A stretch of 64,000 bases of DNA, taken from assembly GCA_024682375.1 (NCBI GenBank), contig JAIKZI010000066.1:1-64000 (forward strand), in the 5' to 3' direction. This stretch comes from Lachnospiraceae bacterium. GTDB lineage: Bacteria > Bacillota > Clostridia > Lachnospirales > Lachnospiraceae. How positions within the stretch are numbered: the stretch's first letter is position 1; every line of letters begins with the position of its first letter. The notes beneath the pieces were generated by a model that was not told the DNA's origin, did not search any database, and saw only the letters and a program-made list of their open reading frames with translations. The position numbers and the translations under genes were made by a program. This document shows positions 5,431 to 51,889 of the stretch, one piece after another.

Positions 5431-7827
5431 ATGAACAAAAAAGTTTATCACACTCTTGAATTTGACAAAATTGTAGAAAGACTCTGTGATTTGGCTTCAA
5501 GCGACAAGGGAAAATCCTATTGTTCACTTCTCGCTCCTATCACAGATATTGAAAAAATAAAAGTTCGCCAAACTGAAACAGCAGATGCTCTTGCTCGTGT
5601 AATAAGAGATGGAAATATTTCTTTCTCAGGAGCTAAAGACATAAACGTTTTTAAAAAGCGTCTTGAAATCGGTGGAACCCTCAATATGGCTGAGTTTTTA
5701 ACCATTGGAGGGCTTCTTTCTGCTGCTCATACTGCGATTAGTTATAATGAATCCTCTAAAGAAAGCGACAGAAAAGATACTCTGACTGATTATTTTAATT
5801 CTCTTTCTTCCTGCGATTCACTTCGAAAAGAAATTCAAAGAACTATTCTTTCTGAAGATGAAATTTCTGATGATGCTACTCCAGAACTTCGAAGTATTCG
5901 ACGCAAAATCGGTGGCTTTTCAGACAAAATTCGTTCTGAAATGACACGTCTTCTAGCTGGAAAGGCCCGTGATTTTCTTCAGGATTCTGTAATAACTGAA
6001 CGTGACGGCCGCTACTGTCTTCCAGTAAAAGCTGAGTTTAAATCACAAGTTCCAGGTATCGTCCACGATCAGAGTTCCAGTGGTCAAACGCTCTTCATCG
6101 AGCCAATCTCAGTAGTGAAGATGGACAACGAACTTAAAGAACTTTTTGCCGAAGAGAAAAAAGAAATCAACCGTTACCTTGCTTCACTTTCAGCTCAGGC
6201 ACAAGAACACCTTTCAGAGCTAGAAATCGACTTCAAGGTTCTATCCGAACTCGATTTCATCTTTGCAAAGGCTTATCTTGCGGAAAAAATGAATGCCATC
6301 AAGCCTGAACTTAACACAGACGGTCGTATTAATCTTCGAAAGGCAAGACACCCGCTCCTCTCTCAGGACAAGGTTGTCCCTATCGATGTAAATTTAGGAA
6401 TAGATTTCAACCAGCTAATCATCACAGGACCTAATACTGGTGGTAAAACAGTTACTCTAAAAACAGTTGGTCTTCTTACTCTTATGGCTCAGGCTGGTCT
6501 TCATATTCCAGCTGGCGACAGAAGTGAAATGTCCGTATTCCACAACGTTTACGCTGATATCGGAGATGAACAGAGTATCGAACAATCGTTATCAACATTC
6601 TCAGGTCATATGACAAACGTTGTTAACATTCTTCGTTCTGTTGAACAGAGTGGAAAGGATTCACTCGTACTTTTCGACGAGCTTTGTGCTGGTACTGATC
6701 CTACAGAAGGAAGCGCTCTTGCTACATCAATTCTTGATGAATTACACCGCGAGGAAATTAGAGTTCTTGCCACAACTCACTATAGTGAATTGAAGATTTA
6801 TGCGCTTTCAACTCCAGGAGTAGAAAATGCTTCTTGTGAATTCTCCGTAGAGACCTTAAGTCCTACTTACCGTCTCCTCATCGGAATTCCTGGAAAGAGT
6901 AACGCTTTCGCTATTTCAAGAAAACTCGGTCTTTCCGATGCAATCATAGAAGATGCAAAAGAACTCATCTCTAAGGAAGATCAATCTTTTGAAGATATGA
7001 TTTCTGATCTTGAGGAAAAAAGACTTTCCATCGAACGCACTGAGTCAAAAATCAAGCGTGATAATGAGGAAATAAAAGCCCTAAAGGCTGAAATTGAAAA
7101 GCAGAAGAAAGAACTTAACGACAAGAAAGCCCACCTCATCGAGGAGGCTCATAAAGATGCAGCTCGCATCCTAAAAGAAGCTAAAGACGAGGCAGATTCA
7201 ACAATCAAATCCATGAGAAAACTAAAGGCCCAAAACCCTGACCTCTCAGAAATGGAATCACTTCGTACCGGCCTTTCAAAGAAGTTAAACCAGGCTCAAT
7301 CCAAATCTTCTATGAAGATCAAAAAAGCAAAAAGCACAGGCACAGTAAAGGCCGACCAGCTCCACATCGGTGATATGGTAAGAGTTCTTTCTCTAAACCT
7401 ATCCGGAACCATCCACTCTCTTCCAAACAAAAAGGGTGAACTTACAGTCCAGATGGGTATCATGCAGTCAAAAGTAAACATTAATGATATCGAACTCATG
7501 CAGGAAGATGACACTGCTAAGAAATTCAGAGAGAAAAAAAGAAAGACAGCAACTCACACCTTCTCAGGTGGTTCTGCAATGTCTATCTCTCCAGAGCTAA
7601 AGCTTCTGGGCCTCACAGTTGATGAAGCTATCTCGAAGCTTGACAAGTACATAGACGACGCTTACATCTCGCACCTTAAATCAGTACGTATCGTCCACGG
7701 CAAAGGCACAGGAGCCCTCAGAAACGCCGTACAGGACTATCTCAACACAAATGCTTATGTGAAGTCATATGATAAGGCTGCATATGGCGAAGGTGATGAT
7801 GGTGTTACAGTGGTTAAATTGTTCTAG
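5431..7827 (+). CDS. mutS2: Endonuclease MutS2 / ribosome-collision factor family, with C-terminal Smr domain
   Basis: ITGPNTGGKTVTLKT Walker A; DELCAGTDPTEGSALA; coiled coil; Smr VRIVHGKGTGALR. Confidence 0.97.
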   Translation: MNKKVYHTLEFDKIVERLCDLASSDKGKSYCSLLAPITDIEKIKVRQTETADALARVIRDGNISFSGAKDINVFKKRLEIGGTLNMAEFLTIGGLLSAAHTAISYNESSKESDRKDTLTDYFNSLSSCDSLRKEIQRTILSEDEISDDATPELRSIRRKIGGFSDKIRSEMTRLLAGKARDFLQDSVITERDGRYCLPVKAEFKSQVPGIVHDQSSSGQTLFIEPISVVKMDNELKELFAEEKKEINRYLASLSAQAQEHLSELEIDFKVLSELDFIFAKAYLAEKMNAIKPELNTDGRINLRKARHPLLSQDKVVPIDVNLGIDFNQLIITGPNTGGKTVTLKTVGLLTLMAQAGLHIPAGDRSEMSVFHNVYADIGDEQSIEQSLSTFSGHMTNVVNILRSVEQSGKDSLVLFDELCAGTDPTEGSALATSILDELHREEIRVLATTHYSELKIYALSTPGVENASCEFSVETLSPTYRLLIGIPGKSNAFAISRKLGLSDAIIEDAKELISKEDQSFEDMISDLEEKRLSIERTESKIKRDNEEIKALKAEIEKQKKELNDKKAHLIEEAHKDAARILKEAKDEADSTIKSMRKLKAQNPDLSEMESLRTGLSKKLNQAQSKSSMKIKKAKSTGTVKADQLHIGDMVRVLSLNLSGTIHSLPNKKGELTVQMGIMQSKVNINDIELMQEDDTAKKFREKKRKTATHTFSGGSAMSISPELKLLGLTVDEAISKLDKYIDDAYISHLKSVRIVHGKGTGALRNAVQDYLNTNAYVKSYDKAAYGEGDDGVTVVKLF

Positions 7828-7879
7828 TCCTTCTACATTATTTATACAAAAAATATATAGATTTTATAACATATAAATT

Positions 7880-8060
7880 CAGCAAAAAAGGATTGAATTA
7901 AGGCTTCGGTCGTAGAGTTTCTAATTTATCACGAATCTCTTTTTTTAACGCGAGAGCGAATAACTCGCTTCGCTCAAACATATCCGCTCTCGCTAAAAAG
8001 TAATTCGTGATAAATAAAAATCTCTACCTCCCTGCAGAAAAATTCAATCCTTTTTTGCTG
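7880..8060. repeat. Long nested inverted repeat IR-1 in the mutS2/rplQ convergent intergenic region
   Basis: Perfect 20-bp outer arms 7880-7899/8041-8060 (cagcaaaaaaggattgaatt), 13-bp arms 7924-7936/8003-8015, 9-bp arms 7950-7958/7985-7993. Confidence 0.9.
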
Positions 8061-8195
8061 TCTTTACATGTTCATATAATCTAAATATATTCAACATAAA
8101 TATATCTTCCAAAAACAAACTTACTATTTCCGCAACACTCCTACACCACCCTCCACCAATACTCATTAAATCAAAAAATTTCTCGCAGTATCAAA

Positions 8196-8482
8196 AAAGC
8201 ACTCTGCATTTTTGCAGGGTGCTTTGGGATTTTTTTGTATGTAATTGTATATTTTTCTCTATGACTATTTTTAGCGGAGTGAGCTAGAGATTCAATAGAA
8301 TATTTTTGTTTTTTAGCAATGATGAATATGTCTGAGCGAAGCGAGTTGTTCATCATTGCGTAAAAAAACTTAAAATATGATATTAGAATCTCTGTGAACG
8401 TAGAGTTTTAGTCATAGAGAAAAATATACACCTACATACTATAAAAATAAAAAAAGCACCCTGCAAAAATGCAGAGTGCTTT
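8196..8482. repeat. Long nested inverted repeat IR-2 in the mutS2/rplQ convergent intergenic region
   Basis: Perfect 30-bp outer arms 8196-8225/8453-8482, perfect 22-bp arms 8246-8267/8409-8430, perfect 11-bp inner arms 8316-8326/8349-8359. Confidence 0.92.
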
Positions 8483-8504: not shown

Positions 8505-9026
8505 TTAGATGAGCTCAAGAAGTACTTCGAGTGCTCCGTCACCTTTTCTCTGGCCAATCTTTACAATTCTTGTGTAACCACCGTTACGGCCAACGTACTT
8601 AGGTGCTACTTCTTCAAAGATGTAGTTAGGTACGTTAAGTGACTTTCTCTTCTTCTGAGAAACAACTTCAGATACAGGGTAAAGAACCTTGAGCATCTGA
8701 CGACGTGCATGAAGTCTTGAAGGCTGATCCTTCTTGATTGTCTTATCAACTGTATCGTATACAGTTACCTTCTTGCCGTCTTTAACTTCTTTAACTCTCT
8801 TACCGTCAGCGTCTTTACGAGCGACTTTAGCCTGAACAGTAACTTCGTCAAAGTTGTTCATCTCTTTAACAGCTGAAGCGATGATTCCTTCAGCGATCTT
8901 TCTTACTTCCTTAGCCTTAGCTTCAGTTGTAACGATCTTTCCGTTAACGAGAAGTGATGTAACCTGTCCTCTAAGAAGAGCTTTTCTCTGTGAAGAAGTT
9001 CTTCCAAGTTTTCTATATTTTGCCAT
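8505..9026 (-). CDS. rplQ: 50S ribosomal protein L17 (with an internal extension)
   Basis: MAKYRKLGRTSSQRKALLRGQVTSLL...; last gene of the alpha operon. Confidence 0.97.
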   Translation of the reverse strand: MAKYRKLGRTSSQRKALLRGQVTSLLVNGKIVTTEAKAKEVRKIAEGIIASAVKEMNNFDEVTVQAKVARKDADGKRVKEVKDGKKVTVYDTVDKTIKKDQPSRLHARRQMLKVLYPVSEVVSQKKRKSLNVPNYIFEEVAPKYVGRNGGYTRIVKIGQRKGDGALEVLLELI

Positions 9027-23540: not shown

Positions 23541-23647
23541 CGTACTATTCGTACGACAAGTGGTGACTGTACACTTTCCCGTGTGTGTCCTACACAACAC
23601 GTTTGTTTCTACAACATGGTAGACATTATTTGTACAGTGACTTGTCG
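23541..23647 (-). promoter_or_regulatory. Structured 5' leader of the S10 operon (candidate autoregulatory RNA)
   Basis: Hairpin cgtac/gtacg at 23541-23555; long-range stem 23554-23561/23640-23647 plus 23566-23573/23631-23638 upstream of rpsJ. Confidence 0.55.
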
Positions 23648-23737
23648 CCAGTTTCTCGACTTGACATTCGCTCCACGGAGATACCTACCGAAGTAGCAAC
23701 TTCACGCTTCATCGCTATCAATGTCACAGCACAAATA

Positions 23738-51524: not shown

Positions 51525-51553
51525 GTTATAGCATCTTTTGTTAGCACTGTCAA
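51525..51553 (-). promoter_or_regulatory. Sigma-A promoter of clpB
   Basis: Minus strand TTGACA-N17-TATAAC. Confidence 0.85.
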
Positions 51554-51567
51554 CAGGTGAGTGCTAA
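51541..51567. promoter_or_regulatory. CIRCE element (HrcA operator)
   Basis: TTAGCACTG-TCAACAGGT-GAGTGCTAA; consensus TTAGCACTC-N9-GAGTGCTAA with one mismatch. Confidence 0.95.
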
Positions 51568-51889
51568 TTTTGTTGTTTCGTTAAAAAAGGTAATAAAATA
51601 AAGCCATCCAGCTGAAATAATGTTTTATTAACTGAGTTTCAAAGGCAATTAGTAAATCGACATTTTTGCTCGCTGTGCATCTTATCGATGCATCGAACAC
51701 CTGAAAACTCGCGGCTTTTCTTCTTATAAGGAAGTAGAAAAGCCGCTCAAACATCTTCAGGTGTTCGAACGAGCAAAAATCTCAATCAACTACTTGCACT
51801 TTTCAACTCAAAATAATAAAACACTATTTCATCTGGACAGCTTTTTTTCACCTTCCAAAATAAAACAACAAAATTAGCCCTCACCTGTT
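51552..51889. repeat. ~340-bp nested inverted repeat IR-3 upstream of clpB
   Basis: Outer arms 51552-51578/51863-51889 complementary at 26/27; further aligned arms inward; inner arms ttcgaacacctgaa-type/ttcaggtgttcgaa and gcggcttttct/agaaaagccgc. Confidence 0.92.

Follow-up and report, generated by a model that had tools for sequence, protein, structure and literature searches.

A dispersed, multi-phylum family of giant bacterial hairpin repeats shares one constant motif by the tip

We describe a family of giant bacterial hairpins that is dispersed and patchy across many phyla, occurs in head-to-head pairs, differs between sister species and has covarying stems. Well-folded members combine long, variable complementary stems and conserved mismatched loops with a near-universal motif by the tip, 5′-TGTYTGA-[stem closed by C(GNA)G]-GAGT-3′, and copies have been amplified within genomes and are present or absent between sister species. 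The explanation we favor, with evenly balanced confidence, is a multi-phylum, REP/BIME-like family of mobile elements that would act as single-stranded DNA, the constant motif being recognised or nucleating the fold. Three members lie in the window, a 64,000-nt stretch of a Lachnospiraceae contig (Table 1).

Table 1. Coordinates of the giant hairpins and associated features in the window.
Feature	Position	Strand	Basis
IR-1, giant hairpin	7868..8072 (about)	motif on minus strand	inverted-repeat search and folds
Constant motif TGTTTGA-GCGAAGC-GAGT(T), centre of IR-1	7962..7980	-	
IR-2, giant hairpin	8196..8482	motif on plus strand	inverted-repeat search and fold
Constant motif TGTCTGA-GCGAAGC-GAGT(T), centre of IR-2	8329..8347	+	
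rplQ intrinsic terminator, gene-proximal outer arm of IR-2	8453..8482	-	terminator scan
Second outer arm of IR-2, inverted terminator copy	8196..8225	+	30/30 exact, 100% complementary
IR-3, giant hairpin upstream of clpB	51552..51889	-	inverted-repeat search and fold
Complete motif of IR-3, TGTTTGA-GCGGCTTTTCTACTTCCTTATAAGAAGAAAAGCCGC-GAGT	51707..51753	-	gapped motif search
IR-3 inner domain, common to two paralogues elsewhere in the genome	51634..51828 (about)	-	82% over 180 bp, 77% over 195 bp
CIRCE-like operator of clpB, TTAGCACTG-N9-GAGTGCTAA	51541..51567	.	consensus match

Giant hairpins of the window and their constant motif

IR-1 and IR-2 are giant imperfect palindromes; mutS2 (5431-7827) and rplQ (8505-9026), both named by NCBIfam, converge on the 677 bp of intergenic DNA that holds them. 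IR-1 begins 40 bp past the mutS2 stop and has a folding energy of -96 kcal/mol on its minus strand versus -80 kcal/mol on its plus strand, and IR-2, with a fold of -139 kcal/mol, terminates 22 bp from the rplQ stop. A first-pass annotation had noticed a 22-mer shared by the two palindromes on differing stems, and this observation holds: the 22-mer is central in each, its copies at 7962-7983 (minus) and 8326-8347 (plus) differ solely by T/C, and the two motifs are oriented head to head with 366 bp between them. The genome-wide search which that annotation proposed places the 19-mer TGTYTGAGCGAAGCGAGTT exactly twice in the 1.91-Mb window genome, both times inside these giant palindromes, and in one further place at up to three mismatches. 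In two relatives of the same genus with mutS2 after rplQ (L199, L200), the gap on reading appears much shorter and holds only a short terminator, retained behind rplQ; the pair was therefore either gained in the window lineage or lost in the others. Both outer arms of IR-2 contain terminator-like sites, and the giant hairpin as such lacks the G+C-rich hairpin followed by a T run of an intrinsic terminator. Elsewhere in the window, an S10-Clostridia ribosomal protein leader (Rfam RF03136) lies at 23642-23720 (minus).

IR-3, whose downstream gene was named clpB by NCBIfam, has a minus-strand fold of -187 kcal/mol. It had been credited with a partial version of the motif; in fact the motif is complete, with a long stem-loop, GCGGCTTTTCTACTT...AAGAAGAAAAGCCGC, forming the tip between TGTTTGA and GAGT, and it recurs identically in the paralogue G000:C57 and as a variant in G000:C63. 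The outer arms of IR-3 are absent from both paralogues. One outer arm takes in the inner half and spacer of an operator that, from the CIRCE consensus, we take to be CIRCE-like, and an imperfect inverted copy of half this operator and its spacer stands at the far end of IR-3 (about 51863-51889). A TTGACA-17-TATAAC promoter underlies the operator, upstream of clpB.

A search with the gapped pattern TGTYTGAGC-N{2,32}-GCGAGT shows that the constant parts are the half-motifs TGTYTGA and GAGT on either side of an apical stem-loop of free length. The first-pass term, apical loop, is slightly off: what stays constant combines an internal loop (TGTYTGA/GAGT) with a small apical hairpin. K-turn RNAs carry a 3-nt bulge and then tandem sheared G.A pairs between two helices; on a reading of the sequence, the family could form tandem G.A pairs beside the tip in the context TGAG/CGAG and conserves them (TGA/GAG), but the stretch of unpaired bases preceding its bulge-side helix is not exactly three long. 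The tip of IR-1 and IR-2 is GC-GAA-GC, and longer tips in the window genome or genus include GCTGC-GAA-GCAGC, GCCGC-GAA-GCGGC, GCCGC-GGA-GCGGC and GCTTCC-GAAA-GGAAGC. We listed 150 tips from 26 genomes spread over many phyla. The seven-base length accounts for 121 of them, 110 of which have the form GC-GNA-GC, every one of the four bases being represented at N (GAA 71, GCA 23, GTA 13, GGA 3); longer stems such as GCC-GNA-GGC also occur, most of them closed by GNA, and the longer apical stems covary. A GNA mini-hairpin consists of a GNA (or GNNA) loop closed by two or more G-C pairs; such hairpins are extraordinarily stable, nuclease-resistant DNA structures, with a Tm of 78 °C for GCGAAGC (PMC4686876), and the same 110 tips fit this definition by sequence.

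Spread, layout and stem evolution of the family

An exact 18-mer scan of 85,462 GTDB species genomes returned at least 118 stretches, the matches listed including Bacillota, Bacteroidota, Pseudomonadota, Nitrospirota, CPR bacteria, Gastranaerophilales and others, which strongly supports the first-pass proposal of a dispersed family in which the tip is constant and the stems vary. Copy numbers are highest in Lachnospiraceae B67 (G066; 67 copies), Sedimenticola (62) and Iodobacter (45). Across the 42 other copy-bearing genomes, a reversed control pattern matched in G066 alone, a genome in which certain stems happen to supply the rest of the reversed motif. The spread is patchy: of the 399 genomes in the window's phylum, 14 carry the GNA form, and in the genus of G066 the family is present in 9 of 24. 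At one orthologous locus, G066 has the element after a gene whose protein is 93-97% identical between the species; several sister species have no element there, and yet another has a different member of the family. No Rfam family matches at or above its gathering threshold, the hairpins giving sub-threshold miRNA-like matches only, and no description turned up in the literature searched by sequence and concept, a search that subscription papers mostly escaped; the family is apparently undescribed in these catalogues and papers, contrary to the possibility of an already catalogued repeat family that the annotation had raised.

The annotation had also asked whether the motif occurs without inverted arms, and it does in two settings, while elsewhere it is usually central in long hairpins. 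In the rumen Eubacterium G036 the motif has 3-bp arms only and no giant hairpin; its loci (for example L433-L441) hold 29 matches of TGTYTGAGCN{2,32}GCGAGT, and the exact copies fetched, with GTT/AAC arms, are a solo form of the motif beside other repeats. The second setting is viral contigs, where 65 matches fall mostly in a few repeated non-hairpin contexts and only 6 of 65 have arms, on which ground we rejected a viral origin. We likewise rejected an amplification or assembly chimera because the arms have diverged and copies recur in both isolates and MAGs. Three further observations concern individual loci. A contig of a same-genus MAG (L004/L006, G005:C319) reads like Bacteroidota DNA, and its three motif copies may be contamination; one of the giant hairpins has a TwoAYGGAY RNA (Rfam RF01731; L288:953-1117, minus) within a few hundred bases of it; and sequences like GGTTACTTTTCTTT / GAAAGTAACC recur outside the hairpins of Parabacteroides (L362-L371), Iodobacter and Variovorax, perhaps as parts of a larger composite unit.

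Of 37 neighboring motif pairs less than 800 bp apart, 31, the window pair included, are head to head, with the minus-strand copy first and the plus-strand copy second; 30 of these 31 are spaced 181-452 bp apart and one 786 bp. Head-to-head pairs occupy the gaps of tandem, convergent and divergent genes about as often as the background does, and the pair, which is BIME-like, therefore appears to form a unit. Single elements lie mostly in intergenic DNA. Genes flanking 40 fetched loci, called as longest-ORF approximations, are ordinary housekeeping genes; no transposase stands out among the 76 flanking genes, and none of the protein families among them recurs convincingly beside elements. We found no mobilising gene beside elements or by a search for Y1_Tnp (PF01797), and no insertion junction or target-site duplication was resolved in the copies compared.

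We folded the hairpin around the motif against shuffled flanks and obtained a median z-score of -9.5 versus -1.1 in control windows. The threshold of z < -3 was passed by 65/121 GTDB copies, 46/46 in G066, 17/17 in G072, 11/11 in Nitrospira and 17/22 in Sedimenticola, versus 3/121, 2/46, 0/17, 1/11 and 1/22 control windows of the same groups. Well-folded groups have complementary arms of ~80-140 nt per side, and hairpin size is roughly 180-340 nt. The hairpin did not beat its shuffles in Parabacteroides, Iodobacter, several Variovorax/Stenotrophomonas copies and other GTDB copies, and the arms of Parabacteroides, Iodobacter and some Variovorax/Stenotrophomonas members are broken by many non-canonical loops.

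Alignment of 26 G066 paralogues gives 99 pairs, 54 of them changed on both sides, and 272 double-change cells versus 71.7 in shuffled and at most 54 in slid controls. The outer 48-bp helix has about 214 two-sided versus 21 one-sided (G-U) cells; shared ancestry of the paralogues inflates the two-sided counts yet does not obviously explain this ratio. Many of the changes are transversions, G-C to C-G and A-U to U-A, without a wobble intermediate, and the internal loops are nearly invariant while the stems vary. The idea that every outer arm is a fresh copy of host flank fits IR-2 and IR-3 and was rejected as a general account; because the G066 outer stems are homologous, and covary, between copies, host capture is occasional. 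Isolated mismatches on the TGTYTGA strand are asymmetric (G.T 78 versus A.C 33, G.A 50 versus C.T 18, T.T 59 versus A.A 11), and therefore this strand appears to be the folded one. Some copies hold additional domains: in three G066 loci (L263, L409, L418) a second hairpin repeat of ~45 nt, TTTGCCTTAGCACGCAG...CCAGTGG...TTTTCTGTGA, apparently another REP-like family, interrupts the right arm, and in Sedimenticola (L387, L390, L393, L065, L080) an extra ~50-nt domain (TTTGTCCACGGATGGACTTATGCCGCGGAGGCC...) sits between GAGT and the right arm.

Mechanism and alternative explanations

In the explanation we favor, the TGTYTGA strand would fold as single-stranded DNA, for example at a replication fork, where the GNA mini-hairpin and adjacent tandem G.A pairs would nucleate or mark the fold. 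A putative hairpin-reading enzyme encoded elsewhere would mobilise the element, while polymerase template switching between the arms would preserve their complementarity and could append inverted copies of host flanks, such as the rplQ terminator and the clpB operator, to the outer arms. We infer single-stranded DNA as the acting form, maintenance of the arms by template switching, and an enzyme or cellular factor that reads the motif. Template switching has been reported to create and maintain perfect stems (PMC8794818), and the two-sided stem changes with few G-U intermediates would fit switching from arm to arm between constant loops held by selection, with selection on the stems equally compatible with their complementarity. 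In carriers as diverse as Lachnospiraceae, Variovorax, Marinobacter, Nitrospira, Parabacteroides and CPR bacteria, a motif of ~18 bases stays near-invariant amid free palindromes, which implies either that some machinery has passed from phylum to phylum or that a cellular factor common to them reads a DNA mini-hairpin. More tentatively, we propose pan-bacterial mobile elements made only of a giant hairpin, whose single-stranded DNA a putative enzyme would recognise via the universal TGTYTGA-[GNA mini-hairpin]-GAGT and whose arm-to-arm template copying would replicate or perfect them and capture host regulatory sequence in inverted form. For studies of how template switching shapes bacterial stems the family is a rich data source, and it can guide the search for the missing mobilising enzyme.

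The main rival to the single-stranded DNA reading is a structured RNA, in which the TGTYTGA strand would be transcribed and its K-turn-like TGTYTGA/GAGT internal loop bound by protein, making a dispersed family of ncRNAs or cis-elements. The likeness lies in tandem G.A pairs adjoining a pyrimidine-rich bulge, stem covariation agrees with it, as do the excesses of G.T and G.A on the TGTYTGA strand, and the slight G.T excess might also point to RNA. However, tandem gene contexts show a weak bias toward antisense (44 versus 26 sense) that would leave the motif strand mostly outside mRNA, pairs occur in every gene context, the outer helix contains few one-sided G-U changes, the C(GNA)G loop at the tip is of the DNA type and Rfam has no match. 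We consider the rival unlikely: of the protein-binding RNA that the first-pass annotation suggested, the G.T excess still speaks in favor, while the tip, the rare G-U intermediates and the antisense bias fit single-stranded DNA better.

Less probable again is a mutational by-product, palindromes that template switching at replication would both generate and perfect without a dedicated enzyme, and in which GNA would be common only as the best folder. The predominance of two-sided changes, the reported capacity of template switching to make and keep stems (PMC8794818) and outer arms that can be inverted host copies all suit this account, but folding alone leaves unexplained the constancy of TGTYT...GAGT across phyla, the shared internal loops, the preferred head-to-head pairing, and 67 copies in one genome when most congeners have none.

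That the hairpins are transcription terminators or stabilisers of mRNA 3′ ends using a stable tip is very doubtful: copies are mostly intergenic, the motif lies a median of 132 bp from the 3′ end of the antisense gene and an IR-2 outer arm is a terminator, but pairs have background gene contexts, divergent ones included, arm length is far beyond any terminator, and gene-proximal terminators are already there. Least probable of all, and already contradicted as a general account unless the transposases were lost after spread, are classical REPs mobilised by a RAYT/TnpA_REP (IS200/IS605) transposase, which would suit the BIME-like head-to-head pairs and the many intergenic copies, but Y1_Tnp is absent from eight carriers (the window genome, G085, G036, G054, G060, G069, G063 and G037), an absence left in some doubt by the incompleteness of those that are MAGs. 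G085 holds 13 exact copies. We thus dropped RAYT/IS200 as general partner; the transposase-type hairpin target that the annotation had suggested is not supported in its RAYT/IS200 form.

Comparison with known systems

REPs are intergenic, multicopy repeats of 20-50 nt with a 5′ GTAG that act as folded single strands (PMC8266576). The family resembles REP/BIME by layout, being intergenic, multicopy, palindromic and paired in inverse orientation, yet it fails three of their defining features: its hairpins exceed 200 nt, the aligned stem of the 26 G066 paralogues, a single subfamily, has no invariant GTAG beside it (the conserved flanks are CAGC / GGCGTACC), and the TnpA_REP gene is missing from the eight carriers, some of them MAGs. 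It differs further in having its constant part near the tip and one motif across many phyla. Mitochondrial double-hairpin elements and sponge RHEs are likewise dispersed hairpin repeats regarded as mobile; they are organellar, and the likeness lies in this general description. Integron attC sites are folded single-stranded DNA hairpins with conserved unpaired bases and variable stems; their tip is variable, their base conserved and their location in cassette arrays, whereas in the family the tip is conserved and copies are scattered. The DNA mini-hairpin d(GCGAAGC), a GNA triloop, has the sequence of the commonest family tip, whose N varies as the GNA rule has it (PMC4686876). Descriptions of these mini-hairpins concern a physical motif and not an invariant tip shared by genomic repeats. 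The family is thus a natural setting for a mini-hairpin so far studied in test tubes.
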